From an uncultured Oscillospiraceae bacterium (GTDB lineage Bacteria; Bacillota; Clostridia; Oscillospirales; Oscillospiraceae), in assembly GCA_947629975.1 (NCBI GenBank), contig CANRFU010000016.1:1-33275 (forward strand): DNA of 33,275 bases, read 5' to 3'. The first letter of the stretch is position 1, and each line of letters begins with the position of its first letter. The notes beneath the pieces were generated by a model. That model did no database searches and had not been told where the DNA came from. It saw only the letters and a program-made list of their open reading frames with translations. The position numbers and the translations under genes were made by a program. Positions 1-13,034 of this stretch are shown here, piece by piece.

Positions 1-213
1 GAGGCCATGCGGAAGGAGGAACTTGCGCTGCGAGGCGAGGCGGAGCGGGCCAAGTGGGAGCGGGACCAGGAGCACCAAGAGGGGCTGAACCTGATCTACG
101 AGCTGCGGGAGTACCAGAGTTTCATCGACTCCATCCCGCCAGAGATCTACGAGGAGCTGCGGCGCCAGTATGAGCTGGGCCAGCAGCAGGACCAGTATTT
201 TGATCACAAATGA
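1..213 (+). CDS. C-terminal end of an unidentified protein (partial, runs off left edge)
   Basis: The reading frame is open from base 1 and ends at the TGA at 211-213, so the ATG at 7 need not be the start; only about 70 C-terminal residues are visible. They are highly charged and probably helical, rich in Glu, Arg and Gln, with a motif reading FIDSIPPEIYEELRRQYELG. No catalytic motif is seen and I do not recognise the family. The stop codon overlaps the ribosome site of the next gene (GAGGAGGA at 212-219), so the two are probably co-transcribed. Its place at the cargo end of a mobile element suggests an accessory or mobilisation protein, but that is inference only. Confidence 0.5.
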   Translation, partial: EAMRKEELALRGEAERAKWERDQEHQEGLNLIYELREYQSFIDSIPPEIYEELRRQYELGQQQDQYFDHK

Positions 214-226
214 GGAGGAATCAAAA

Positions 227-583
227 ATGACTTACGAGGAACAGTATCCCCGTCGAGCGCAGATCATCCGCACCAAGGCGGACCGAAAGGCCGCGCCGCT
301 GAGCGAGTACCGTATTCCCACCGAGGATGGAGAGTTCACCGGCACCCTGGCCTTTCGCTGCTGGCACAGAAATAAACCCATGCTGCTGTGCTGCTTCGAC
401 GCGGATGATGGGCGGAAGGTCATGCTCCAAGCCTGGTGGCAGAGTTGGGGCGTGAACTACTCGCCCAAGGAGACGCTCATCAACTTTGCCGACGAGGTCT
501 TTGACGGGAGCCGATGGAGGTGTACTTACCGCAGAAAGGCAAACGGGTACCTCTCCTGGCGGACGGCGGAGCGGACGGAGTGA
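227..583 (+). CDS. Hypothetical small protein
   Basis: This encodes 118 residues starting MTYEEQYPRRAQ. The ATG at 227 is chosen because GAGGAGGA lies 7 bases upstream; an in-frame start at 170 would overlap the previous gene and has no ribosome site. The protein is rich in Trp, Arg and Tyr (for example LQAWWQSWGVNYSPKE) and has no signal peptide or membrane segment. I do not recognise the family. It follows the partial upstream gene with an overlapping stop and ribosome site, and ends immediately against the convergent gene at 584, so both sets of transcripts meet here. Probably mobile-element cargo. Confidence 0.55.
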   Translation: MTYEEQYPRRAQIIRTKADRKAAPLSEYRIPTEDGEFTGTLAFRCWHRNKPMLLCCFDADDGRKVMLQAWWQSWGVNYSPKETLINFADEVFDGSRWRCTYRRKANGYLSWRTAERTE

Positions 584-889
584 TCACTCACTATCCATGT
601 CCTGATAGACGCGGTGAGCGCCCGGAAGAAACTCCGGGCGCTCACTGTCGTATCGATTCAGTTCAATGGCCAGCCGCCACGCCAGCCGGAACCCACTAAT
701 GAAGCTGTCCAGAGAGCGGACGTCCGCGATCTCATCCTTGGCGTCGATGATCCGCAGTACCAAACGGCGGCCCTGCTTGTCCAGCAGTTCACCAAGTGCC
801 TGACGGGCGGCCTCGGCCTCCGCTTCGGCTGCGGGGACTTCGGGGCGGATGTAGAAACTGTCGTATAGGGCTTTGAGGGTTTCGTTCAT
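584..889 (-). CDS. Small DUF6809-like protein
   Basis: This encodes 101 residues, MNETLKALYDSF at the N-terminus and a central SLDSFISGFRLAWRLAIELN. That layout (ALYDSFY start, then FISGFRLGWRLA-type helix and an ERP tail) resembles small proteins labelled DUF6809 that are common in clostridial mobile elements; this is from memory. The start is supported by AGGAGG about 8 bases upstream on the minus strand (around 898-903). No function is known. A perfect 11-bp hairpin (615-625/634-644) lies within its 3' end without a U-tract. It is downstream of the res-mod operon on the same strand, separated from res by 77 bases. Confidence 0.6.
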   Translation of the reverse strand: MNETLKALYDSFYIRPEVPAAEAEAEAARQALGELLDKQGRRLVLRIIDAKDEIADVRSLDSFISGFRLAWRLAIELNRYDSERPEFLPGAHRVYQDMDSE

Positions 890-966
890 ATGTCTCGCCT
901 CCTGTTAGCAAAGCACAATACCACAGGAGGGGGAAGAAGTCTACTGGAAAACTGCCTGCCTCTCGA

Positions 967-3747
967 CTACTGGAAACAGTGTTTTGCAATTATCCCGTCG
1001 ACGTCAGCTATGCTGTAGGAAACATCATTACACCACTCTCCGTATTCGCCGCAATCGTTAACGGCGGCAACCCATTCAGCCAATGCTTTGCGCTTCTCGA
1101 TATCCTTGCGTGTCTCCTGCCCTTTGGTCTCCAATATCAATGTCTTTCCATTGTCCAGGTGAATCAAAAAATCCGGGATATATTTTCTGAAAACACCGTC
1201 AAAGACATAGAGAATTTCGTATCCCAAGTGATCATTTTTGACCCACGATTTTACATGTGGGTTTTTCTCCAGAACATAACTTTCGGTCGCTTCCCAAGCA
1301 CTATCAAAAACACAATGACTGATATGCGAATGCTGCGTTATATAACAGGGTTTGCTCGTGAACCATGTTGGCATATCTCCAGTCGAACGCACCTTTTTGT
1401 TTGCATCAAATATTGGTACGATGCGTTCCGTTTGCTCCAGCTTGATGAAACTCCACAAGTGCTGCACAATGCGATTCATGTTCATCATGTACATAATACG
1501 TTGCCGCAACGGATCTGTATTAAATAAAGGCGGATTTATAACGATTGTACCGGATTTCAGGTATCTCTCAACTAACCGAATGACTTGCCCCAGCAAAGCG
1601 AACTCTGTTCCTTCTTCTTGCCAAGAGGCTTTCATTAAACCGTAGACATTGCTCGCTGCATTGAAAATAATCGTTTGAAGCCGCAGTTGTGAATCAAGCT
1701 TCTGCAGATCGATCTCTGTGCATTTTGTTAAATCGGTTTTTCCATCAACGATAGGAGCAAGATCTGCGCGGAGACGGGTATCGGCAGCGTCAAGCTCCAG
1801 TGTGTCGATTTTATCCAGATCAATGGTCAGCTTAGGCTTAAAAGTCCTATCCAGTCTTATAATATTGGGCCAGGAGATTTCAAATTCCGCCCGGTCCTTT
1901 ACAACTTCTACTTGAGTTTTAGGCGGAGTAACAGGAGAAGTCCCTTGTTCGTCCGTCTCATGCGGCAGGAAGGAAAACGGAATGCCAAAAATATTCACAT
2001 ACTCCGGTGTGAACATATCACTTCCATCTGCCAGATCATAGGAGGTCCGACGCAATCCTCGCCCAACTACTTGCTCACATAGAAGCTGACTGGAAAAAGC
2101 CCGCAGTCCAAGGATGTGAGTCACTGTTTTTGCATCCCAACCTTCGGACAGCATTCCGACAGAAATCACGTTGCGGATCTGTTCACCGCGCTTTCCCCTT
2201 TGACCAACAGTATCTACTGTTTCACGGAGAATGGCAGCGGCATCTTTCTTGCTTACGTTTTTATCGTCACCGTCATCAGATATTTCCGATGTTTGGGCCA
2301 CGACATTCTCTGCCGCATCAATCGTTTTTGAATCGATATGAATCGTGAACTCCGGCTTGCAAAGCTCAGGAACAGGAATGCGCCCATGATCAAACGCATA
2401 TTTGATTCGGGCTGCAGTCTCTGTGCGGTTCGCAACTGTGATCATAACCGGAGGCACAACAGATCCTGCCTCCTTCCACACTTTGTAGAGTTCCAGCCAG
2501 TCTTTCCCCAGCAAATAATACGCCTGAGTTAAAAGATCGGGCAGCGGCTCTTCTTCACCTGCGGAACGGTTAATATCAGTTCGCACAGTCGGATCGTTGT
2601 AAATGTGATACAGCTTGGAACGGAAACTGACAGCGTCCGGTGTTCCATCATCGCGGACTACTACACGCGGGGTTTTGACAAGGCCTGATTCAATCCCATC
2701 GTTTAGCCCAAAGTCGCTGACAATCCACCCGAACAGCGCCTCTTCATCATTTCTTTTCCCGGAAGGCGCAAACGGAGTAGCTGAAAAGTCATAACAGGTT
2801 AGAATATTCCGCGTCTTATTGATACGATCCAATCCGCTGATCCAGATCGTCGCCTGTTGTTCGGCCTCTTTTTGCTCCTTGGTCAATTTGGCTTTATTTT
2901 CGGGATTCTTACGCCAAGCATGGTGGGCCTCGTCGTTAATCACAAGGATATTCCGAGCATTGGACATCTCGCCCAGCACCTCACGGGTATATGCCTCGTC
3001 ACTTTTGGCACCGCGCTTATCCACACTGCGACGCTTGGCGACGGTCTCTTCGCTGTCCCATGCTAGGGCCTGCCAGTTTATGATCATGACCTTGCCCTGG
3101 CGCAGCTTATCCATAAGGCCAACGGGAACCACATTGAACTGGATATAGTAGTTGTCATCCCCACCTGTCTGGAGAACCTGCAAACGGCTTTTTACGGTCA
3201 GCCCAGGGGCCACGATGAACACATACTTGGAAAAACGTCTGTCCTGCGGATAGGTGACCTTGTTGCAAACCATCCACGCAATCAGCATGGCCATAACAGT
3301 AGTCTTACCGCCGCCGGTACATAACTTCGTGCAAATCCTCCGGAACAGGCCGCCGTCGCCCGGAATATCAATGCCGACTTTTTCTGAGTCCGGGGCCTCT
3401 GTCAGCCAAATCAGCGTCTCGATTGCGTCCATCTGACAGTAGAAGAATTGATACTGCCGCGCCGTGGTGTCGTTCCAATGCTCCAACAGCTTATGGGTCA
3501 CGCCGGTCACGCCCGGATAGCCGGCCTCGCGCCACGCCTTGACGCGGGGCCGAATCTTATTGACCAGGGGCAGCTCGATGAACTGTCCGATATCGTTATA
3601 CTGGTTGGAGCCCTGACCGGCGACAAAGTAACCGGCCGGGCGTCTGCCTTCCTCGCGAATAAAGGACTGGCTGTTCAGATCATACTTCCAATGATGGGTC
3701 GGCTCCCGAAAGGCCGAGTTGATAATCAGTTGGTCGATTCCCGCCAT
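967..3747 (-). CDS. Type III-like restriction enzyme subunit: SF2 helicase with C-terminal PD-(D/E)xK nuclease
   Basis: This 926-residue protein has the order expected of a Res subunit (BPTD_3080-type family). A Walker A-like CTGGGKTT is near residue 141, motif II NDEAHHAW near 270 and motif III DFSATPF near 320. Motifs V/VI (MLSEGWDAK then QVVGRGLRR) lie near 540-565. At the C-terminus (about 860-880) YIPDFL followed by LILETKG fits a PD-(D/E)xK nuclease. It would translocate on DNA using ATP and cut unmodified DNA in complex with Mod. Its ATG overlaps the stop of the mod gene by one base (TGATG), so translation is coupled. The helicase residue usually Ser in relatives (GSGKT) is Gly here, which should still bind ATP. 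Confidence 0.9.
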   Translation of the reverse strand: MAGIDQLIINSAFREPTHHWKYDLNSQSFIREEGRRPAGYFVAGQGSNQYNDIGQFIELPLVNKIRPRVKAWREAGYPGVTGVTHKLLEHWNDTTARQYQFFYCQMDAIETLIWLTEAPDSEKVGIDIPGDGGLFRRICTKLCTGGGKTTVMAMLIAWMVCNKVTYPQDRRFSKYVFIVAPGLTVKSRLQVLQTGGDDNYYIQFNVVPVGLMDKLRQGKVMIINWQALAWDSEETVAKRRSVDKRGAKSDEAYTREVLGEMSNARNILVINDEAHHAWRKNPENKAKLTKEQKEAEQQATIWISGLDRINKTRNILTCYDFSATPFAPSGKRNDEEALFGWIVSDFGLNDGIESGLVKTPRVVVRDDGTPDAVSFRSKLYHIYNDPTVRTDINRSAGEEEPLPDLLTQAYYLLGKDWLELYKVWKEAGSVVPPVMITVANRTETAARIKYAFDHGRIPVPELCKPEFTIHIDSKTIDAAENVVAQTSEISDDGDDKNVSKKDAAAILRETVDTVGQRGKRGEQIRNVISVGMLSEGWDAKTVTHILGLRAFSSQLLCEQVVGRGLRRTSYDLADGSDMFTPEYVNIFGIPFSFLPHETDEQGTSPVTPPKTQVEVVKDRAEFEISWPNIIRLDRTFKPKLTIDLDKIDTLELDAADTRLRADLAPIVDGKTDLTKCTEIDLQKLDSQLRLQTIIFNAASNVYGLMKASWQEEGTEFALLGQVIRLVERYLKSGTIVINPPLFNTDPLRQRIMYMMNMNRIVQHLWSFIKLEQTERIVPIFDANKKVRSTGDMPTWFTSKPCYITQHSHISHCVFDSAWEATESYVLEKNPHVKSWVKNDHLGYEILYVFDGVFRKYIPDFLIHLDNGKTLILETKGQETRKDIEKRKALAEWVAAVNDCGEYGEWCNDVSYSIADVDGIIAKHCFQ

Positions 3748-6272
3748 CAGTCGTCACCCACCCTTATCACTTTCAGACTTTCGATTCCCCGGTCATCAAT
3801 GATCTTGACGGCAATCTGTGTATTGGGCTGTACGTTGAACCAGAGAGACTCATTTCCAGCATATTTTTCGATCAGATCCGGGTCGATCTCTGCTTTGAGT
3901 GTCTTAGCGAGTTTAGCCCATCCGTCCTTTTTACCGCCCATGGGGAAGAACACCTGCTTGGGTTCGATACACATCCCGTCATAGTCGGTGTCCAGCATCC
4001 ACATAGCGATCCTGGCGGTGCTGCCCGATTCCACAGTGCCCTTGGTAACGTCATAGTAGTCAAACCCGTTGACCCGGACCTTGAACCTCGTTTTGCTGCG
4101 CTTGTCCTGGATCAGCTCCACATCCGGCTGGCCCACCAGCCAGAAGGACTGGTCGGAGGAGCGTTTTTTCTTCAGGTCTTCCGTCATCAAGTCGGTGTTC
4201 ATCTGCGCCTTGAGCAGCGTCACGCCGGGCCACTTCATCTCGTCGATATCCTTGGCTGCCTCCGGGTCAAACTGGAAGGCGGCGAAGATGATCAGTTTCG
4301 GGGAGGGACGCAAGGTCTCCGCCTCGTCCATGGCAAGCGCCACCATCCGGGAGTCCAACGGTTTCGTCTCTCCAGCAAAGCAGATCACCGCCCGGCGGGG
4401 CACATCTTCTTTCGTCTCCGCCTCCGCCTGCAGGAACTTTGTCCCGGACAGCGGCTCCACGCGGCTGAATTCCAACCTGCTGCCGCCGCGCCCCAGGATG
4501 CCGGTGGCCAGGAGCTGGTCCCGCCAGTCAGACTGCTTGGCGCTGAGGTCTTCCTCCTCTTCGCTGATCTCATCCAGCGGTTTCACCACCGGAGCGGGCA
4601 GTGCCTCCACAGTGAAGGGGCCGGTGATGCGGATCTTGGTCTTGTCGATCTCCGGCTGGTCGTAGAGCGTCTCGGTGGCGGGGGGCTCGTTGTTGGCGAT
4701 GGATTTCAGCGTGATATGCGGCACCGTCTTATAGACAAAGCCGCTGCCTACACCTTGCTCCTCATGGGCCAGCTTGTAGTAGTCGAATGTGGCCGTCATC
4801 AGCCGCTGCTTGGCCAGGGTGATGGCTACCCGCGAGGTGTCGCAGGTAATCCAGCGGCGGCCCCACTGCTCGGCCACATAGGCGGTGGTGCCACTGCCGC
4901 AGGTGATGTCCAAAACAAGATCGCCGGGATCTGTGGTCATAAGCATACAGCGCTGGATGACCTTTATAGCGGTTTGAACAACATATCTTTTATCTTCGGT
5001 AAAGCTACCCGTTCCAGTGTCAGTCCATAACTGTGTAATTGGTACAACAGGGAAATCATCTAAATATCGTACATATTGCAAGCTGTTGGCGGCTACATGT
5101 AACCTGTTCCTTTCGGCTAAGTTACGAAGCCCCTCTATATTAGTTTTCCAAGCTTGGGTATAGGTCTTGCCATTGTATTCAAACGGAATTAGCGGATTTC
5201 CCTGAGATGTGATATTATCAGCTTTATATATCTTCACTCCATCTGGAATTAAGGTGCGATTTGCACGTTCTTCCTTGGTCATTCCACGACGAGTTCCGTC
5301 TGGGAAATCCAGCCAAGTATATGTATCAGCGGTTCCATCCTCAAAAGATTTTGGTAGATATAAGGTCTTATATTTACAATAATCTCTATTTTTTGCGTAC
5401 CAAACTAAAAAGTCAACCCGACTTGCTAAATACTTTGTCGTTACACCACTCGTTTTGACAAAGGGAATAATGTTTAGATAATTCTGTGTTCCAAAAATTT
5501 CATCACACAATTCTTTAATATGATGTACATTTTCATCACTTATCTGCACGAACACACTGCCACTATCCGCCAGCAATTCCCGCGCCAGCAGCAGGCGGTC
5601 ACGAAGATAGGTGAGGTAGGAATGGATCCCCAACTCCCAAGTGTCCCGGAAAGCCTTGATCATCTCCGGCTCCTGCGTCAAGTCCTCGTCCTTCTTGTCC
5701 TTCACATCCCGCTTATCCACAAAAGGCTGAAAATTTGAGCCGTACTTGATACCGTAGGGCGGGTCGATGTACACCATCTGCACCTGCCCGGCCATGCCCT
5801 CCTTCTCCAGCAGGGAGTTCATGATGACCAGGCTGTCGCCCGCGATCAGCCGGTTGGTCCAGTTAACGCCGTGCTGGTAAAACTCGATGCTCTCCCGCCG
5901 TCGGCGCATCCGCTCGGCGGGAGTCTCCGCCTCAAAAAAGGTCTGCTGTCCTTCCAGTTGGCCTTCAATCGCATTGGAGTATTCCTTCATCACCCGTGCG
6001 ATGATGCTGTGCGGTTTAATGGATTCGTGGATATGGATAGAGGAGGTGGGCACGTCAAAGCTTGTCCCCTCCGCTTTACCTGCCCATTGCAGCGTCGGGT
6101 CAAGGTGGGGATCGAACTGGTAGGTCTTTACTTTTTCCTCTGCCTTATCGTGCTGGGCCATGCCGACTGGGGGATTGTTGGTGCGCTTCTTGTCGTCGTG
6201 GGTATAGGCTTCGACGTCGCGCATTTTTTCAGCACCGGCGATAACAGCCGGGTTTTTCCTCGGACGTGCCAT
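3747..6272 (-). CDS. Type III-like site-specific DNA adenine methyltransferase (Mod)
   Basis: This 841-residue protein has the beta-class order: catalytic motif IV DPPY at residues 170-173, and the AdoMet-binding motif I LDITCGSGTTAYVAEQW near 455. Between them lies a target recognition domain. Such enzymes transfer methyl to adenine N6 and give the sequence specificity of the Mod-Res complex. The C-terminal third probably contacts Res. The start ATG sits directly after the TAA of the upstream ATPase gene, and GGAGGCC precedes it. Residues about 235-430 are encoded by clearly AT-rich DNA (about 4980-5570) whereas both flanks are GC-rich, which suggests a swapped specificity domain. The target sequence cannot be read from the protein. 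Confidence 0.9.
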   Translation of the reverse strand: MARPRKNPAVIAGAEKMRDVEAYTHDDKKRTNNPPVGMAQHDKAEEKVKTYQFDPHLDPTLQWAGKAEGTSFDVPTSSIHIHESIKPHSIIARVMKEYSNAIEGQLEGQQTFFEAETPAERMRRRRESIEFYQHGVNWTNRLIAGDSLVIMNSLLEKEGMAGQVQMVYIDPPYGIKYGSNFQPFVDKRDVKDKKDEDLTQEPEMIKAFRDTWELGIHSYLTYLRDRLLLARELLADSGSVFVQISDENVHHIKELCDEIFGTQNYLNIIPFVKTSGVTTKYLASRVDFLVWYAKNRDYCKYKTLYLPKSFEDGTADTYTWLDFPDGTRRGMTKEERANRTLIPDGVKIYKADNITSQGNPLIPFEYNGKTYTQAWKTNIEGLRNLAERNRLHVAANSLQYVRYLDDFPVVPITQLWTDTGTGSFTEDKRYVVQTAIKVIQRCMLMTTDPGDLVLDITCGSGTTAYVAEQWGRRWITCDTSRVAITLAKQRLMTATFDYYKLAHEEQGVGSGFVYKTVPHITLKSIANNEPPATETLYDQPEIDKTKIRITGPFTVEALPAPVVKPLDEISEEEEDLSAKQSDWRDQLLATGILGRGGSRLEFSRVEPLSGTKFLQAEAETKEDVPRRAVICFAGETKPLDSRMVALAMDEAETLRPSPKLIIFAAFQFDPEAAKDIDEMKWPGVTLLKAQMNTDLMTEDLKKKRSSDQSFWLVGQPDVELIQDKRSKTRFKVRVNGFDYYDVTKGTVESGSTARIAMWMLDTDYDGMCIEPKQVFFPMGGKKDGWAKLAKTLKAEIDPDLIEKYAGNESLWFNVQPNTQIAVKIIDDRGIESLKVIRVGDD

Positions 6273-8321
6273 TTAGTTGGCCTCCTTCACCTGATTGGGA
6301 ACATGAATTACTTCACTGAGTTTTGGCTCGAAAAGCTTGTCAAACAGGATTTGATTTCGTCTCTTGGCATCTGCAAGAAGTTTGGTATAAGAAATAACCT
6401 CGAAATATGCATTCCGCTCTCGATTAAATCCCGTATAACCCATATTATCTGGCATACGCGATAAACTTGCATTCATACAATGGGTGCGCATTTTATCTGT
6501 CAGGTCGCATATCACATAGCAGCGAAACAGTGTACCGTCATTAACAGAAAACGTATTTCCATTCGCTTTTTCCTTCCTGCCTTGTCGTATTAAATCTACA
6601 TATTCCCCAACCTGATTAATTGGATTTTTAGCATCATTATCTGGCTTTTTAAACTCTACTATTGTTACAGTTGAAAATGGCTCATCGCTGTCTGAATACG
6701 CAAACGCTCGATCGAAAATGGCAATATCAGGTTCTTTTCTGCTGTTACTCTCAATATAAGGCATAGATTTTAATGTTTTATCAGATGCCAGATACTGATG
6801 ATAAGCTAAGCGTTCATCTACAATCCACAGATTCATTTCTTCAAATTGTATATCATCTGATGTATGTTGCATTGGGCAAATCACGGAATGGATGGCTTCT
6901 TCCTTCTTAAATTTCCCATCATCCTGAACAGTTAATGCATCTTCAAGAATCGTGAGTATTGTCTTTCGGCGTGTTACATATTCGGCTAAGCAAGTTTTGC
7001 TGAGTTCTGTAATTCCGGCCCAATATTGTTCAAACCGCTCATGGAATGTAGAATCAGGGGTATTGACTGCATCCTTAACATCACTCTCCAACTGCTTCCC
7101 TTGCAATTTGAGTTCCCTTTCCCATCTCTGCACATGTTTATGCAATTCAAGATCCAGCGCATCAGCCTTTAATCCAGCTGGTATTTCGTCGTACACCTCA
7201 GGTCGCTTTTGTAGGAGGTACCGGTACATTGGCTTATCGTAAGCAACAAAGTCGTCAATCTTTTTCTGCTTCTCTTTTTTGATATCCGAAATATAATCAG
7301 CAAGATAACCTTTAATAAACTCTACTGCTGTCTTTATAATCGCATCCTCGCTAACTCCGAGCAAAGAGACTTGACCGTTTTTCTCGTCATATTCAAAGTT
7401 GGTTCTAGTTGTATTGACTATCGAATCCAAGTACTTGCTGGTTATGTATCCCACATAGAAGAAACCTCTATCTTCCTTGAGTGGAATAATCTTTTTCTGT
7501 AAATCGGGAATATATATCTTCAGCTCTTTAGTCGCTACTTCCTGTAGGTTCGCACATAGATGCAACTGATGGGTGGGGACTCCTTCCGGAATTCTTAAAT
7601 GGTAAATTGTAAAATCATGACCTTCAATATTGAATCGATCTTGGTCTAATGAATCACTAATATTATCATTGAACAATTTGTTTAAGTTAATTGGGTCCGA
7701 GTCATCATCCATAATTGTTATTTGAGGGCAGGAATCCGAAAGAAAAAACGGGAGACAGTGTTCAATGATTTTTCGGGCAACTGCATCTAATTCCACAGGA
7801 GCCGCGTTTCGGTATGTAGGAGAAAAATCACACAGCTTCACTGTGGTTCCTGTATCTTTAGCTTCAGAATCCGTACAGTTATTTTCTGGATTAATGCCTT
7901 CAGCATTAAAAATAAATCCTCGATGGAAGTATTTCCCCTCTTCTTGAAAAGTACTATTTACTTCCACTTGATTAAACGCCTTTAACCACAAAAAACGGCC
8001 TATGCCTTTGCAACCCTTTTTTATCTTGAGTGTAGAATATGCTGTTAGAAATGAATTATAGTTTGGCGTATCGAATCCAGTTCCATTATCAGTAATTGAA
8101 AAAGACTCAAATTTTTCTAGGGGGCCTTTCTGCTCCATAGTTTGCTGACCAGAGTTCACGCGTTTAGCATAAATCGTGATTGCACCTGCATTTTTATTCT
8201 GAGAATCCTCAATTGCTTGAATTGAATTAACGACTGCCTCAAACAGTGGCCAAAGTGCTTTGCTTTCGGCAAGCTGCATGCTATTTAACTGTCCCCTAAT
8301 GTCAAATGCAAATGTTCCCAT
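6273..8321 (-). CDS. GHKL (Hsp90/MutL-type) ATPase fused to a nuclease-like domain
   Basis: This protein has 682 residues from the ATG at 8321. That start is preferred over the TTG at 8336 and ATG at 8327 because GGAGGAA lies 6-7 bases before it. The N-terminus carries all GHKL boxes: N-box FEAVVNS near residue 30, G1 DNGTGFD near 80, G2 KGCKGIGRF near 100 and G3-like DTGTTVKL further on. A Lys/Glu-rich helical middle follows. Near 530-560, EPDIAIFD and then TIVEFKKP match a PD-(D/E)xK pattern. It probably binds ATP, dimerises and acts on DNA beside Res and Mod. It abuts mod with no gap (TAAATG). Its DNA is much more AT-rich than the chromosome. The role in the system is not known to me. Confidence 0.75.
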   Translation of the reverse strand: MGTFAFDIRGQLNSMQLAESKALWPLFEAVVNSIQAIEDSQNKNAGAITIYAKRVNSGQQTMEQKGPLEKFESFSITDNGTGFDTPNYNSFLTAYSTLKIKKGCKGIGRFLWLKAFNQVEVNSTFQEEGKYFHRGFIFNAEGINPENNCTDSEAKDTGTTVKLCDFSPTYRNAAPVELDAVARKIIEHCLPFFLSDSCPQITIMDDDSDPINLNKLFNDNISDSLDQDRFNIEGHDFTIYHLRIPEGVPTHQLHLCANLQEVATKELKIYIPDLQKKIIPLKEDRGFFYVGYITSKYLDSIVNTTRTNFEYDEKNGQVSLLGVSEDAIIKTAVEFIKGYLADYISDIKKEKQKKIDDFVAYDKPMYRYLLQKRPEVYDEIPAGLKADALDLELHKHVQRWERELKLQGKQLESDVKDAVNTPDSTFHERFEQYWAGITELSKTCLAEYVTRRKTILTILEDALTVQDDGKFKKEEAIHSVICPMQHTSDDIQFEEMNLWIVDERLAYHQYLASDKTLKSMPYIESNSRKEPDIAIFDRAFAYSDSDEPFSTVTIVEFKKPDNDAKNPINQVGEYVDLIRQGRKEKANGNTFSVNDGTLFRCYVICDLTDKMRTHCMNASLSRMPDNMGYTGFNRERNAYFEVISYTKLLADAKRRNQILFDKLFEPKLSEVIHVPNQVKEAN

Positions 8322-8384
8322 GGCCATTTCCTCCAATCATTTTTTGTATTTTATGACAATTAGTGTCCTAAAAAACTCTCTTCA

Positions 8385-9095
8385 TTACGATTGCTCCTTC
8401 TCTTTCTCCCTAAACACCTTAACGTTATAATAATTCCTGCACCGTGTACTACAAAACTCGCTTTTGGGATTGATATTGTAATATATTTGCCCACAGTTTT
8501 TGCAGATTTTCAGTGTCTTCCGCGGGCTGCTGACCAATGCGCTGTATGCGAAATGGAGGAACGCCTCCAGCGAGGAAAACTCCCAGGAAAACTGCGGGCG
8601 CGTCGCTCCTGTCATGTGAAAGCCAATCGATCCGGACAAAGCCAGGAGATCGGAGCCTTTTGGAAGCGGGAGAACCTCCGGTCTGCCTATAATGCTGAAC
8701 CGCTGATACAGGCTTTTGAACACGTTGCGAAAGCGTTCCAATTCCTCGCCATAGCCTTTGCTGTTTACTAAGCGGCTTGACGGCCTCAAATCGGGGTGCT
8801 GGACAGGGGCGGTGTCCTTATCCGCCCCAAGCCCCAGGAGGCCGTAACGGGCCGCAAAATCGGTGCAGGCGTAGTCTTTTGACGGGTCGTCTATGGTAAT
8901 CAGACGCCCCAGTTCCAACGCATTTGCAACCAGCTCTCCAGGCATCTCTGCGCAGTTATACCAAATCAACCTGGGCTGCTCAGAGGCGTCAAGATCCGGA
9001 ACCAAATATTGCACGCCTCTATGTTTTTTAATTGTATAGCCCTGCCACAGAGGCCACATGATGCGCTGGCCTGCTAAGACGTCATTCAATTCCAT
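8385..9095 (-). CDS. Zinc-finger protein (CGNR/DUF6076-like)
   Basis: This encodes 236 residues from the ATG at 9095, which has GGAGGA about 6 bases upstream; the in-frame GTG three bases earlier is too close to it. The C-terminus holds a treble-clef-like zinc ribbon: CKNCGQIYY, then FCSTRCRNYY (C-x2-C...C-x3-C), followed by a basic tail. This resembles CGNR/DUF6076 proteins, often thought to bind nucleic acid. The rest is a mixed alpha/beta region with no motif I recognise. It is the first gene of the leftward run and ends 63 bases before the GHKL ATPase start, so it is probably in the defence operon, as regulator or accessory part. Confidence 0.6.
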   Translation of the reverse strand: MELNDVLAGQRIMWPLWQGYTIKKHRGVQYLVPDLDASEQPRLIWYNCAEMPGELVANALELGRLITIDDPSKDYACTDFAARYGLLGLGADKDTAPVQHPDLRPSSRLVNSKGYGEELERFRNVFKSLYQRFSIIGRPEVLPLPKGSDLLALSGSIGFHMTGATRPQFSWEFSSLEAFLHFAYSALVSSPRKTLKICKNCGQIYYNINPKSEFCSTRCRNYYNVKVFREKEKEQS

Positions 9096-9125
9096 CACAG
9101 TTCCTCCTGTGTAATCGCTGTAATT

Positions 9126-9154
9126 ACTATATCATCTTTCAGCCAGAGCCGCAA
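9126..9154 (-). promoter_or_regulatory. Probable promoter of the leftward zinc-finger/GHKL/Mod/Res operon
   Basis: On the minus strand TTGCGG (9149-9154) and TATAGT (9126-9131) are separated by 17 bases, 31 bases before the zinc-finger gene start. The -35 box lies inside a 12-bp hairpin (9141-9152/9157-9168, one G-U pair), so this stretch may also terminate or attenuate transcription arriving from the sigma-like gene. Just downstream of the -10 lies the 10-base word CGCTGTAATT (plus strand, 9116-9125), which recurs in the promoter at 9748-9776. Confidence 0.5.
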
Positions 9155-9180
9155 GAGCGGTTCTGGCTATTTTTGCATTT

Positions 9181-9690
9181 TTAGAGGTCTTTGCGCCCGG
9201 TCACCAACAGCCGGACCTTCTCGATTGCCCTCCTTCGGAGTTTGGTCACGTTTCGAACCGAGCATCCTAGTTCCTCCGCGATCTCTTTGGTGGAGACCTG
9301 GCATACGACGTTCTCCCAGAGCACCAGCCGCTGGAGGCCGCTCAGCTCTTTCAGCGCCTCGCTGGTGGGATACTCAGCGACCAGTTGGTGGATGTCCTCC
9401 GGGCGTTGGGAGAAGATCACGTCGTCCCATTCCTCCCAGCGGCACAGTTTCCTCCAGTCTCCCGGTCTCTGGACTCTCAGTTCTTCCGGCTTGGGCTCCC
9501 GCTCCGTCACCGTGGGATCCAGATCCGCCCGGTGCTCTTCGTGTCTCCGCTCATTGTTCCCGTCGTAGCGGTCCAATTCGGCCAGAACGCCGTCCCAGTT
9601 GCCGGCGCCGGCCAGTTCCCGGAGCCTATGATCCAGTTCCGCCTCCCGCTTGTCCGCCTCATTGCCCCACTTAAAATTCTTTTCTGCCAT
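9181..9690 (-). CDS. Sigma-70 region 4-like helix-turn-helix regulator
   Basis: This encodes 169 residues from the ATG at 9690. An open frame extends to 9789, but that part encodes a Tyr/Asn-rich stretch overlapping the promoter, so it is excluded. Upstream of 9690 a GGAGGG sits at a longish spacing of about 13. The C-terminal 60 residues contain an HTH, STKEIAEELGCSVRNVTKLR, preceded by LKELSGLQRLVLWENVV, as in sigma-70 region 4 or small sigma-like proteins of clostridial integrative elements. No region 2 is present. The N-terminal half is acidic and charged. It is transcribed divergently from the excisionase-like gene and probably controls element genes. Confidence 0.65.
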   Translation of the reverse strand: MAEKNFKWGNEADKREAELDHRLRELAGAGNWDGVLAELDRYDGNNERRHEEHRADLDPTVTEREPKPEELRVQRPGDWRKLCRWEEWDDVIFSQRPEDIHQLVAEYPTSEALKELSGLQRLVLWENVVCQVSTKEIAEELGCSVRNVTKLRRRAIEKVRLLVTGRKDL

Positions 9691-9747
9691 GGTACCGTTT
9701 TCACCCTCCGAACCGTCTATCTTATAGACGGAGTAATTGTTGTAATT

Positions 9748-9776
9748 ATAATAATCAATTACAGCGCGATTGTCAA
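9748..9776 (-). promoter_or_regulatory. Promoter of the sigma-like gene with palindromic operator candidate
   Basis: TTGACA (minus strand, plus coordinates 9771-9776) is 17 bases from TATTAT (9748-9753), with a TATAAT three bases further on. The inverted repeat GTAATTG (9733-9739) and CAATTAC (9756-9762) brackets the -10 region, so a dimeric repressor here would block transcription. A TATAAT is also present on the plus strand (9747-9752) and could serve the divergent excisionase-like gene. Confidence 0.65.
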
Positions 9777-9792
9777 GAGGGGGCTGCAAATT

Positions 9793-10023
9793 ATGGGCAG
9801 AGAGAATAACGATTTGACCCGCTACCGGGCCATGTTCCGGGGCTACCCGGACGCGCTGACCCCGGAGCAGGTCCGGCAGATGCTGGGTGTGGGCCAGCGG
9901 ACGGCCTACCGGCTGCTGCGAACGGGGGCCATTCCCAGCGTGCGGATGGGCCGGATCTACCGGATTCCCAAGACGGCGGTCATCGACTATCTTTGCGCCG
10001 GGGAAAACTCAGAAAAGACTTGA
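9793..10023 (+). CDS. Excisionase-like helix-turn-helix protein
   Basis: This encodes 76 residues starting MGRENNDLTRYR. The ATG at 9793 follows GAGGGGG; the much longer open frame upstream is a shadow of the sigma-like gene on the other strand. LTPEQVRQMLGVGQRTAYRL followed by GAIPSVRMGRIYRIPKTAV is the winged-helix HTH_17 fold of excisionases and MerR-like DNA-binding proteins. Placed 64 bases before a tyrosine integrase gene, it most likely directs excision (Xis), or represses the integrase promoter. A strong hairpin separates it from the integrase. Confidence 0.8.
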   Translation: MGRENNDLTRYRAMFRGYPDALTPEQVRQMLGVGQRTAYRLLRTGAIPSVRMGRIYRIPKTAVIDYLCAGENSEKT

Positions 10024-10028
10024 AAAAC

Positions 10029-10069
10029 GCGCCGTTCCAAGGTAACATCACAAGACCTTGGAGCGGCGC
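10029..10069 (+). other. Strong stem-loop between excisionase-like and integrase genes
   Basis: A 15-bp stem (10029-10043 with 10055-10069, one G-U pair in RNA) encloses an 11-base loop and ends 4 bases before the GGGAGGT ribosome site of the integrase. There is no U-tract, so it is not a normal terminator; it could limit integrase translation or stabilise the mRNA. Confidence 0.6.
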
Positions 10070-10087
10070 GGAAGGGAGGTATCTGTT

Positions 10088-11338
10088 ATGAAAGGGGAGG
10101 TCACCGGCAGCTTGTTTGAGCGCCGGGGCAAATTTACCGCCATCCTAAGCTACTACGATGAGGACGGCAAACGGCGGCAGAAGTCCGTAGCGCTGGGCAT
10201 CCCGGTGAAGGGCGGGAAGCGTAAGGCGATGGCCAGGCTGGAGGAATTGAAGCGGGAGTTTGCCCTCAAAGAGCCCGCCAAGCCCAAGGAGGAGTCTCCG
10301 CTGTTCGCGGACTATCTGAAGGATTGGCTGAAGATCGCCTCCACCACCATCGAGCGGACCACAAAACAGAGCTATGAGCAGCTGTTCAAGGCCCGTCTGG
10401 ACCCGTTTTTTCGTTCCCGGAAGCTGAAGCTGTGCGACGTAGAGCCCAAGCACATCCGGGAGCTGCACCAGTCCATCCTGGATGACGGCTGCAACGCCAA
10501 TACCGTCATCCACTACCACGCCCTGGTGCGGAAGGCCCTTCAGTACGCCGTGGAGAATGACATGATCCCCAGCAACCCCGCGGACCGGGTGGCACGGCCT
10601 CGCAAGGGCAAGTATCTGGCCAGCTACTATACCAAGGACGAATTGGCGGCGCTGTTCGAGGCCACCAAGGACGACTCTATGGCAGTGGTCATCCAGTTGG
10701 CGGCCTATTACGGTCTGCGCCGGAGCGAGGTGCTGGGCATCCGCTGGAGCGCCGTGGATTTCCAGCGGGGGACCGTGTCCATCAACCACAAGGTCACCGA
10801 ACTCACCGAGAATGGCGAACACCGGCTTTACACCGAGGACAAGCTCAAAACCAAGTCCAGCTTCCGCACCCTGCCCCTGTTCCCGGCCACCCGAAAGCTG
10901 CTGGAAGAACAGAGGGAGAAGCAGGCGCGGTACCGGGCCATGTTTGGCAAGTCCTATTGCCGGGAGTACATAGACTACGTCTGCACCGACGAGTTGGGAC
11001 AGTTGTTCCAGCCAAACTATGTCACCAACCATTTCCGGGTCCTGCTGGAACAGCACGGGCTGAGGCACATTCGATTCCACGATCTCAGACACAGCTGCGC
11101 CACCCTGCTGCTCAGCCAAAACGTCCCCATGAAACAGATCCAAGACTGGCTGGGTCACTCCACCTTCTCCACCACTGCCGACATCTATTCCCACCTGGAT
11201 TTCAGTTCTAAGCAGGAGTCCGCCGCCGCCATCGCCGCGGCCTTCGCCCCGCCGGAGCCCGAACAGGCAGAAGAACAGCTGGGGGAGGTAGAGGAGCAGA
11301 ACGAGGCCCCCCGCTTCAGCATGACCATGGGGGTGTGA
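10088..11338 (+). CDS. int: Site-specific tyrosine recombinase (integrase)
   Basis: This encodes 416 residues from the ATG at 10088, with GGGAGGT 7 bases upstream; the TTG at 10058 lacks one and lies in the hairpin. The N-terminus has an arm-binding-like domain (SLFERRGKFTAILSYYDEDG) and then a SAM-like core-binding domain (LFADYLKDWLKIA). In the catalytic domain, the first Arg is in YYGLRRSEVLGIRW near 210, HDLRHSCATLL near 331, LGHSTFSTT near 357 and the Tyr nucleophile in ADIYSHLD near 367. It integrates and excises the element by recombination at att sites. The intact tRNA-Ser and its partial copies 1.1-1.7 kb downstream are its likely target. Confidence 0.9.
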   Translation: MKGEVTGSLFERRGKFTAILSYYDEDGKRRQKSVALGIPVKGGKRKAMARLEELKREFALKEPAKPKEESPLFADYLKDWLKIASTTIERTTKQSYEQLFKARLDPFFRSRKLKLCDVEPKHIRELHQSILDDGCNANTVIHYHALVRKALQYAVENDMIPSNPADRVARPRKGKYLASYYTKDELAALFEATKDDSMAVVIQLAAYYGLRRSEVLGIRWSAVDFQRGTVSINHKVTELTENGEHRLYTEDKLKTKSSFRTLPLFPATRKLLEEQREKQARYRAMFGKSYCREYIDYVCTDELGQLFQPNYVTNHFRVLLEQHGLRHIRFHDLRHSCATLLLSQNVPMKQIQDWLGHSTFSTTADIYSHLDFSSKQESAAAIAAAFAPPEPEQAEEQLGEVEEQNEAPRFSMTMGV

Positions 11339-11339
11339 G

Positions 11340-11900
11340 GTGAACTACCAAAAGCTGCGGGAGCAGTATCCCGCCGTCATCACCATGGATCAGTTCTACC
11401 GTATCTGTCATATCAGCAAACGCAAGGCCCGGTGGCTGCTGGAGCACGGGGTGGTGCCCTGCCGGGACTCAGGGAAAAAGACCCGGCGATTCAAAATCCG
11501 GCTGGCGGATGTGATTGCTTTTCTGGAGCGTCGGGACGCCGGAGATCCTGCGGTGGCTGCGCCCAAGGGAGCGTTCTCCAGTGGGGTCCACGTCCGCAAA
11601 CCGGGACGGGTTCCCCTTGCCGCCTCGGAACGAGAGAAACTGCGGGTATCTCTCCTGGCCGCATGGGAGAGCTGGCCGGACGCGCTGACAGTGCGGCAGG
11701 CGTCGGAGCTGTGCGGGTGCTCGGAGAACACGATGCACCGGTGGGCGAGGAAGGGCACCGTGGCAAGCGTGGCTTACCGTGGCGCCTATCTGGTGTCGAA
11801 GGAGGGGCTGGCTGGGTGGATGGCTATCAGGCGGGGCGGCGCTCTCAGGCAGAAGCCATGGGAGCCCAGGCAAATTGATGATCCCATCCGTTTCATATAG
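11340..11900 (+). CDS. Protein with two helix-turn-helix (excisionase-like) domains
   Basis: This encodes 186 residues from a GTG at 11340, one base after the integrase stop, so it is translationally coupled. Two HTH_17-like units are visible. The first is MDQFYRICHISKRKARWLLE with a following GVVPCRD wing. The second, after a Pro/Arg linker, is LTVRQASELCGCSENTMHRW with the wing KGTVASVAYRGAYLVSKEGL. Tandem arrangement suggests it bridges two DNA sites, for example in the attachment region or at the element's operators. Family known only by fold; function as a recombination accessory factor is inferred from its position. Confidence 0.7.
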   Translation: MNYQKLREQYPAVITMDQFYRICHISKRKARWLLEHGVVPCRDSGKKTRRFKIRLADVIAFLERRDAGDPAVAAPKGAFSSGVHVRKPGRVPLAASEREKLRVSLLAAWESWPDALTVRQASELCGCSENTMHRWARKGTVASVAYRGAYLVSKEGLAGWMAIRRGGALRQKPWEPRQIDDPIRFI

Positions 11901-11935
11901 CATCGTCAAGAGCCGATAAAAACCGTACATTCGCT

Positions 11936-11983
11936 GACAGGGCTGTTCGGAGCGGGGAGTGCGTCGCTCGGAGGAGCCCTGTC
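11936..11983 (+). other. Long stem-loop downstream of the tandem-HTH gene
   Basis: GACAGGGCT (11936-11944) pairs with AGCCCTGTC (11975-11983). An inner GAGCG/CGCTC pairing makes a branched or extended hairpin. No U-tract follows. The 11-base word GTCAAGAGCCG occurs on either side, at 11905-11915 and 12006-12016. It may be a structured RNA or protein-binding site of the recombination module. Confidence 0.4.
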
Positions 11984-12073
11984 GAACATTTGCTGTTTTC
12001 TGCCGGTCAAGAGCCGGGAGAAATATCCGAAAAACGCCCCTGCCGAGTGACAGAGGCGTGGAAAGGAGTTTTT

Positions 12074-12424
12074 ATGATCACCGGGCTGACAAAGCGGGAA
12101 AAGACCACAGAGATCTGGTTCGATGAGAAAGACCCCAGAATCCACATCCGCACCCACAACACCGATCTGAAAAAGCGGCTTGCCGCCTATGCGCGGCGAA
12201 ACCCCGGAGTATGCCGCCAGACCGACGAAGACCCGGAGACGGGATGTTTGGAATTCGACATTGAAAAAGGGCGGCTTTCCTTCCGGCTGACCGCCCCTTA
12301 CAGCGAACAGCGGCGGGAGGCGGCAAGCAGGGCGGGGAAGGATCACGCTGCCAATTTGTCACATCATGTCCGCAAGGATGAGATGCAGGCCATTTTAGAA
12401 AAAACCGCAAATGCCGGCCCTTAG
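12074..12424 (+). CDS. Small conserved mobile-element protein of unknown function
   Basis: This encodes 116 residues starting MITGLTKREKTTEIWFDEKD. The ATG at 12074 has AAGGAG 5 bases upstream. The sequence has a beta-rich N-terminus, then LKKRLAAYARRNP and FDIEKGRLSFRLTAPYSEQR. I recall similar small proteins near integrases and in prophages of gut Firmicutes, sometimes loosely labelled chaperone; I would not assign that function. No membrane segment. Its stop lies inside a perfect 13-bp hairpin shared with the end of the tRNA transcript from the opposite strand. Confidence 0.65.
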   Translation: MITGLTKREKTTEIWFDEKDPRIHIRTHNTDLKKRLAAYARRNPGVCRQTDEDPETGCLEFDIEKGRLSFRLTAPYSEQRREAASRAGKDHAANLSHHVRKDEMQAILEKTANAGP

Positions 12425-12436
12425 GCCGGCATTTGC
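12399..12436 (-). terminator. Intrinsic terminator of tRNA-Ser (shared by the convergent small gene)
   Basis: A perfect 13-bp stem (12407-12419/12424-12436) encloses a 4-base loop. On the minus strand it is followed by GG and six Ts (12404-12399), the classic arrangement for ending the tRNA transcript 4 bases after CCA. On the plus strand it contains the stop of the small gene but has only a weak T stretch. Confidence 0.8.
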
Positions 12437-12439
12437 TTA

Positions 12440-12531
12440 TGGCGGAGATGGAGAGATTCGAACTCTCGCGCGTTTTTTAGACGCCTACCGCATTTCGAGT
12501 GCGGACCCTTCAACCACTTGGGTACATCTCC
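12440..12531 (-). tRNA. tRNA-Ser (anticodon CGA)
   Basis: Read on the minus strand, the acceptor GGAGATG pairs with CATCTCC, followed by discriminator G and an encoded CCA. The anticodon stem CCGCA/TGCGG encloses the 7-base loop CTCGAAA, giving anticodon CGA (codon UCG). The T arm is GAGAG-TTCGAAT-CTCTC, and there is a long variable arm with a GCGT/ACGC pairing, as expected for a class II serine tRNA. The 3' end faces the mobile element, and 5'-half copies lie upstream, so this gene is the attachment target. Confidence 0.92.
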
Positions 12532-12556
12532 ATGATGAAATTGTCGCTGGGATTTC

Positions 12557-12575
12557 TGTTAGCATTTTGTTAGCA
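12557..12575. repeat. Direct repeat TGTTAGCA, 11-bp period (candidate integrase arm site)
   Basis: TGTTAGCA occurs at 12557-12564 and 12568-12575, one helical turn apart, 26 bases from the tRNA 5' end. Tandem short direct repeats beside a tRNA core are typical of arm-type binding sites for tyrosine integrases. Binding is inferred only. Confidence 0.5.
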
Positions 12576-12662
12576 CGGCCTGAAAACACGCCCTCCCGAA
12601 CAGCCCGCAAATGCCCTGTTTATGCGGGTTTGCGGCGTTTTGTGGGACACTGCCGCGGCATG

Positions 12663-13034
12663 ATTTCGAGTGCGGACCCTTCAACCACTTGGGTACATCT
12701 CCGTGTTTTAGCTTGTTTTTTCATTTGGGCAGAACTATAGGGCAGAACTGCGGGGTGGCGCTCATTCGGGACAATTTGCCCCGCATGCCGGAAAATGCCC
12801 GGGGACAGGACGACCTCCAAATTCTTACATTTCGAGTGCGGACCCTTCAACCACTTGGGTACATCTCCGTATTTCACATTATTTTTCGTTTGGACAGAAC
12901 AACAGGGCAGAACTGCGGGGTGGCGCTCATTCGGGACAATTTGCCCCGCGTGCCGGAAAATGCCCGGGGACAGGATGACCTCCAAATTCTTACATTTCGG
13001 GTCAGGGCCGTTATAACCACTTCGATACCGCTGC
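12663..13034. repeat. Tandem array of tRNA-Ser 5'-half copies (attachment-site scars)
   Basis: The 40-bp segment running from the tRNA anticodon loop to its 5' end (12492-12531 in the intact gene) is repeated at 12663-12702 and 12829-12868, essentially unchanged. A diverged copy lies at about 12994-13034. Spacing is 171, 166 and 165 bp. The roughly 125-bp spacers after copies 1 and 2 are near-identical to each other; the spacer next to the tRNA is different. Each similar spacer contains GGRCAGAAC twice at a 13-bp period (12727/12740 and 12892/12905). No copy has a 3' half, so none is a functional tRNA. From 13035 to 13153 I see nothing further. Confidence 0.8.

Follow-up and report, generated by a model that had tools for sequence, protein, structure and literature searches.

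A BPTD_3080-type Mod-Res operon that also carries a gene for a GHKL ATPase joined to a Shedu-like nuclease

Proteins in which a GHKL ATPase is joined to a nuclease have been described twice in forms close to the one considered here. The first, paraMORC3, is defined as a GHKL domain with S5 and a C-terminal restriction-endonuclease-fold domain bearing E-D-ExK (Iyer, Abhiman and Aravind 2008, PMC2292703); the same source presents paraMORCs as predominantly components of restriction–modification (RM) systems, with a subset of paraMORC3 standing alone, reports MORC genes beside type III-type helicases, gives a GhXhhpXXRhl motif in S5 for the MORC family proper, and proposes that MORC and paraMORC proteins in RM operons loop or clamp DNA. 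The second is VcSduA, a single GHKL-Shedu protein of Shedu type I-D from Vibrio cholerae VSP-II WASA (PMC12137116, 2025), which alone protects against Drexlerviridae; E27A and K557A each abolish protection, and from growth curves at all multiplicities of infection tested its authors infer direct phage restriction with host viability kept. Among other Shedu proteins, EcSduA is described as binding DNA ends and cutting nearby (PMC12904381), and some type I Shedu N-terminal domains as sensing free ends (PMC12409362). Here we describe an operon on a 33,275-nt stretch of DNA (the window) from an uncultured Oscillospiraceae bacterium, the entire contig 16 of a 98-contig, 1.86 Mb assembly, in which a gene for such a protein abuts the genes for a DNA methyltransferase (Mod) and a restriction endonuclease (Res) of the BPTD_3080 family. 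From sequence comparisons we consider it likely that the operon supplies two anti-phage modules, a BPTD_3080 Mod-Res pair and a GHKL–Shedu-like protein that works by itself.

The operon comprises four minus-strand genes at 967–9095, read in the order zinc-finger gene (8385–9095; 236 aa), GHKL gene (6273–8321; 682 aa, with the paraMORC3/VcSduA architecture), mod (3747–6272; type III-like N6/N4 DNA methyltransferase, 841 aa) and res (967–3747; BPTD_3080-family restriction endonuclease with an SF2 helicase, 926 aa). Mechanical start assignment extends the GHKL reading frame to a TTG (6273–8336), and the ATG at 8321, with GGAGG before it, gives the 682-aa product; the zinc-finger frame likewise runs mechanically over 8385–9098, with its ATG at 9095. 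The zinc-finger stop lies 63 bp from the GHKL ATG, the GHKL stop directly adjoins the start of mod (TAAATG), and mod overlaps res (TGATG), so that the four leftward genes and the spacing described in an earlier note on this DNA hold in the reading-frame coordinates. Since none of the four reading frames is interrupted, and full-length relatives exist for res, mod and the GHKL gene, we do not regard the operon as a chance pattern. The abutting genes suggest co-expression rather than assembly into one complex.

The window res scored 1089 bits against NF046055, the BPTD_3080 family model (curated cut-off 800), and matched Pfam ResIII; a PDF...ETK stretch near its C-terminus was recognized by eye. 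RE_endonuc (PF19778) gave no match to it at E 0.01, whereas the res of a classical type III locus discussed below (L101) does match. The window mod matched PF01555 (E 1.5e-33) and PADLOC MTase_III (E 2.3e-164). The locus thus has the adjacent N6/N4 methyltransferase and SF2 helicase-nuclease genes of a type III RM system, and the identification of a BPTD_3080-type Res and a type III-like Mod in the earlier note is upheld. This pairing is usual for BPTD_3080 systems: mod adjoins res at 16 of the 17 other loci in the phylum, as in the window, and a same-strand mod is present at 61 of 65 viral-contig loci, at 9 of which it lies 0.4–2.4 kb from res. Judged by its family, Mod would methylate host sites and the ATP-driven Res would cut unmethylated DNA.

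We next considered the third protein. The GHKL residues E28, N32, D78, G80, G82, G106, G108 and R109 and the nuclease residues D532, E556, K558 and Q570 were invariant in alignments of 12 and 28 rows, window included; T159 (G3) was invariant over 12 rows and is not among the positions listed for 28. Residues 1–348 matched MORC/Hsp90 ATPase modules in a fold comparison, the match list covering these residues only and saying nothing about the C-terminus. A first single-sequence structure model was unusable (pLDDT 33.9). Profile–profile comparison of the nuclease core with SduA gave 92.3% (E 5.5e-7, 147 columns), and 90.0% with full-length Shedu, compared with 0.13–0.17% for controls, indicating remote homology of the core to SduA. 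Searches of Pfam, PADLOC and NCBIfam at E 0.01 gave no match to the window protein. Nine of the 12 aligned rows, the window's not among them, matched HATPase_c (best E 8.1e-5), 8 matched HATPase_c_3 (best E 1.2e-6), and one matched SduA_C (E 0.15). By its sequence, then, the third protein combines a GHKL ATPase of MORC/Hsp90-like fold with a Shedu-like PD-(D/E)xK nuclease, and the fusion proposed at first sight of the DNA is borne out by the invariant residues, the fold match and the profile likeness.

The layout of this protein, an N-terminal GHKL ATPase and a C-terminal PD-(D/E)xK nuclease, is that of VcSduA. In both, the spacing from the catalytic Glu to the catalytic Lys is 530 residues (E28/K558 in the window, E27/K557 in VcSduA), and three relatives of the window protein carry E27/K557 exactly. 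It also has the GHKL, S5 and C-terminal nuclease parts that define paraMORC3, the nuclease part by profile only. Thus an architecture whose role the earlier note could not name was already in print, as paraMORC3 (PMC2292703) and as VcSduA (PMC12137116). The difference lies in the setting: VcSduA acts alone, whereas the window GHKL gene abuts mod-res. The available text of the paraMORC3 paper names neither BPTD_3080 operons nor one slot common to two families, and, among the papers listed in searches largely outside the subscription literature, no title or abstract opening described a BPTD_3080 mod-res operon with a GHKL-nuclease. In the manner of MutL or MORC, the GHKL-S5 part would dimerize and close on ATP, and closure would gate the C-terminal nuclease, which would cut phage DNA; what is established for VcSduA is limited to the loss of protection when the ATPase site or the nuclease site is mutated (PMC12137116).

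Whether the GHKL-nuclease belongs to the Mod-Res system was examined from both sides. On the Res side we read 90 loci: the window, 17 from the phylum (L046–L062), 7 from 44 plasmid records (L106–L112) and 65 of 75 on viral contigs (L178–L242), leaving out short weak Res matches (L243–L252). Redundant copies are included, some loci are truncated (L056, L061 and L062), and mod was not seen at 4 of the 65 viral loci. Profile searches with both GHKL families described here found a GHKL-nuclease within the BPTD_3080 operon at only two of the 90, the window and L058. Two viral contigs come near: at L221 (3104–8472) a GHKL–Shedu-like gene is convergent with a BPTD_3080 mod-res, about 0.1 kb from res, and at L182 a GHKL reading frame, incomplete at the contig end, follows res at a distance of about 0.9 kb. 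In the phylum, 18 of 398 genomes passed the NF046055 cut-off and 2 of 398 contained the GHKL protein when it was used as a single query, the window genome alone having both; at E 1e-60, window-type Res was found in the window genome only, of 291 genomes of the class. A broader search of the phylum (A3) matched 380 of 398 genomes, among the matches listed nearly all over the first ~80 positions, as ordinary GHKL proteins do, and five of those listed were taken as long matches (G255, G219, G338, G085 and G066). A GHKL relative occurred in 1 of 50,697 phage records, and a Shedu protein used as query had no match in a viral scan.

On the GHKL side we compared 44 loci of the family: the window, 10 from 58 plasmid records (L035–L044), 6 genomic (L002, L045 and L102–L105) and 27 on viral contigs (L075–L101). 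L036 and L105 are broken copies, and several of the 44 end at a contig edge. The window is the only one of them with the GHKL gene inside a BPTD_3080 operon. No BPTD_3080 Res was found near GHKL-family genes at any of 74 loci scanned, within the stretch covered, some ending at contig edges; one of these, L118, is the same place as L058 in a stretch too short to include its res. By eye, no accession was common to the 58 plasmid records containing the GHKL protein and the 44 containing window-type Res. The closest GHKL relatives (63–67%; L002, L102 and L075) had no mod-res in the stretch covered, which ends 291 and 258 bp after the GHKL gene at L002 and L075 and begins 561 bp before it at L102. 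A conserved three-protein system as a general rule is ruled out by the 74 loci and the separate plasmid accessions. The distinct or expanded three-protein anti-phage system envisaged in the earlier note is therefore not supported as stated, and the consistent adjacency that it proposed to look for was largely contradicted, a BPTD_3080 operon containing a GHKL homologue being rare among the loci compared.

In at least 6 of the 44 loci, nevertheless, the GHKL gene is closely packed on one strand with genes of a methylase-type system (BREX-1, Hma, type I or type III); nearest neighbours were listed for 32 loci and identified in part by family search or annotation, so this count is a lower bound. 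The gene lies 0 bp from mod in the window and, at L043, 9 bp downstream of a type I RM hsdS gene. At L040 (7610–11004, a Vibrio fluvialis plasmid) a type I RM operon ends in two overlapping tandem genes, a classical Shedu gene and a GHKL–Shedu-like gene, and at L044 (5268–16778, Fusobacterium) the GHKL–Shedu-like gene comes 73 bp after BREX-1 PglX, with PglZ beyond. It follows HmaC by 4 bp at L078 (132–5547); Hma systems include a methylase, and HmaC is the component identified there. At L101 (4940–11992, a viral contig) it stands 58 bp downstream of a classical type III mod-res, whereas the window Res is of the BPTD_3080 family and the GHKL gene is upstream of mod rather than after res. Other settings include a PDC-M01/Septu-like pair (L002), CBASS-like genes by annotation (L037) and AbiE (L042). 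The anticodon nuclease PrrC plays a guard role beside a type I RM system, and the tight runs at L040, L043, L044, L078 and L101 would suit a similar back-up, in which the GHKL-nuclease would be kept inactive as long as Mod-Res functions and be triggered once the RM enzyme is inhibited by phage proteins. We hold this to be very unlikely: such runs occur at 6 of 44 loci only, and VcSduA works without an RM partner, its authors inferring direct restriction with the host kept viable (PMC12137116).

L058 has the Res closest to that of the window (81% identical; Mod 72%), and a gene for a 667-aa GHKL-PD-(D/E)xK protein occupies the same slot, 2 bp before mod. The two GHKL genes were ruled out as orthologues, their likeness being one of profiles (99.1%, E 4.6e-19, 567 columns) with a BLASTP E of 0.036. 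The C-terminus of the L058 protein resembles that of the window (94.6% by profile), whereas a Shedu likeness of its family was unsupported (0.17% by profile). Elsewhere this second family occurs beside RM enzymes (type ISP in Phaeobacter, LlaMI in Psychrobacter) or in other settings. In a tree of 25 Res proteins the window and L058 were sisters (100/99), joined next by L057 (100/99) and then L062 (100/100); L057 has no GHKL gene, and L062 showed no GHKL match in the 328 bp covered before mod. The slot appears to have been filled twice, or once and then refilled by a distant relative. Because 2 of 90 Res loci and 1 of 44 GHKL loci combine both, and the sister operons are filled by different families, we favour, as the likeliest reading, a third gene that is a self-contained module expressed together with the RM pair and not a fixed subunit.

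Several results weigh against this reading. The only two BPTD_3080 operons with a GHKL-nuclease are sisters with the same slot occupied by different families, and occupied operons were as clustered on the Res tree in only 9 of 500 label shuffles, which speaks against independent riders. Contig ends truncate many of the loci. The window GHKL protein had no Pfam HATPase match at E 1, no SduA_C match at E 10 by hmmscan and no PADLOC SduA match at E 10, and VcSduA was likened to it by published architecture and residue positions, not by its sequence. For lack of a curated SduA_C or PADLOC SduA match we call the protein Shedu-like, not Shedu. The shared slot is the only finding in favour of a functional link, and within the window/L058 clade a subunit role or a relay from Res to the nuclease is possible. 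If it were a genuine third subunit within this clade, the GHKL-nuclease would loop or clamp DNA for Mod-Res and deliver a second cut. This would fit the slot in L058, the GGAGG that precedes mod within the final codons of the GHKL gene in both operons, and the general MORC/paraMORC proposal in PMC2292703. We think it unlikely, however, as no GHKL-nuclease was found in the operon at 88 of 90 BPTD_3080 loci (some cut), including L057, which groups with the pair, and the window GHKL family otherwise occurs without BPTD_3080. We attach slighter odds to a relay, in which a small BPTD_3080 clade would keep an operon slot for an ATP-gated, possibly end-sensing nuclease: Res would first break unmethylated phage DNA and the GHKL-nuclease would then act on the ends.

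To the right of the operon are a gene for a protein with sigma-70 region 4 (9181–9789), a tyrosine integrase gene (10058–11338) and tRNA-Ser (12440–12531); given these neighbours, the genes probably lie on an integrated element. No direct repeat bounding the element was recognized in 1–13000 among the 20 largest of 38 repeat families. About 40 bases of the tRNA-Ser gene recur at 12663 and 12829, and a 118-nt repeat lies at 12717 and 12882; the repeats in 12440–12886 are possibly traces of repeated integration at tRNA-Ser. The guanine-plus-cytosine (GC) content is 38.9% in the GHKL gene, 53.3% in mod and 49.1% in res, which fits separate acquisition of the GHKL gene, tempered by the values in three close relatives (31–38%) and the L058 GHKL gene (36.7%), also below their surroundings. 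Promoter-like sites occur inside the run, for example at 8305–8278 on the minus strand (15 found, compared with 10.4 ± 3.0 in shuffles). Together with the varied neighbours of the GHKL family, the mosaic GC, these sites, the integrase and tRNA-Ser would accord with mere stacking of defence genes on a mobile element, functionally unlinked and abutting by accident. The TAAATG junction and the occupied slot in L058 argue otherwise, and we rate stacking the least probable of the explanations weighed.

The first gene of the run owes its zinc-finger label to a C-terminal CxxC...CxxxC stretch, and its protein matched no Pfam family at cut-off. Relatives were present in 9 of 196 genomes of the class (the window genome and 8 others), in none of the plasmid records and, as one weak partial match, in viral contigs. 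Reading frames flanking six of them included no mod, res or GHKL gene, as judged by eye without family search, and BLAST found no counterpart in L058; a part for this protein in the system is thus unsupported. Ahead of the gene is an operator-like repeat, TAATTACAGCGATTAC (9111–9126, minus strand), with a second copy ahead of the sigma-like gene (9733–9748, minus strand). Its 14-bp core, ATTACARCRATTAC (9111–9124 and 9733–9746, minus strand), is present at just these two places in the 1.86 Mb assembly, the pattern being derived from the same two copies that it counts, and the copy at 9733 lies beside a promoter-like site (TTGACA-17-TATTAT) of the sigma-like gene. The core is possibly an operator common to the operon and this gene.

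GHKL ATPases tied to nucleases (MutL, MORC, paraMORC and VcSduA) have been proposed as kin of the eukaryotic MORC proteins, and the 2008 work left it at a proposal whether GHKL-nucleases in RM operons act jointly with the RM enzyme or by themselves. The window, L058 and L057 form a natural test set, with related mod-res genes, two different GHKL-nucleases and one operon without. A different ATP-driven nuclease in the same position of the sister operon hints that the pairing may matter, and if the relay were true, a restriction cut would become destruction, handed from an RM system to a Shedu-like nuclease.
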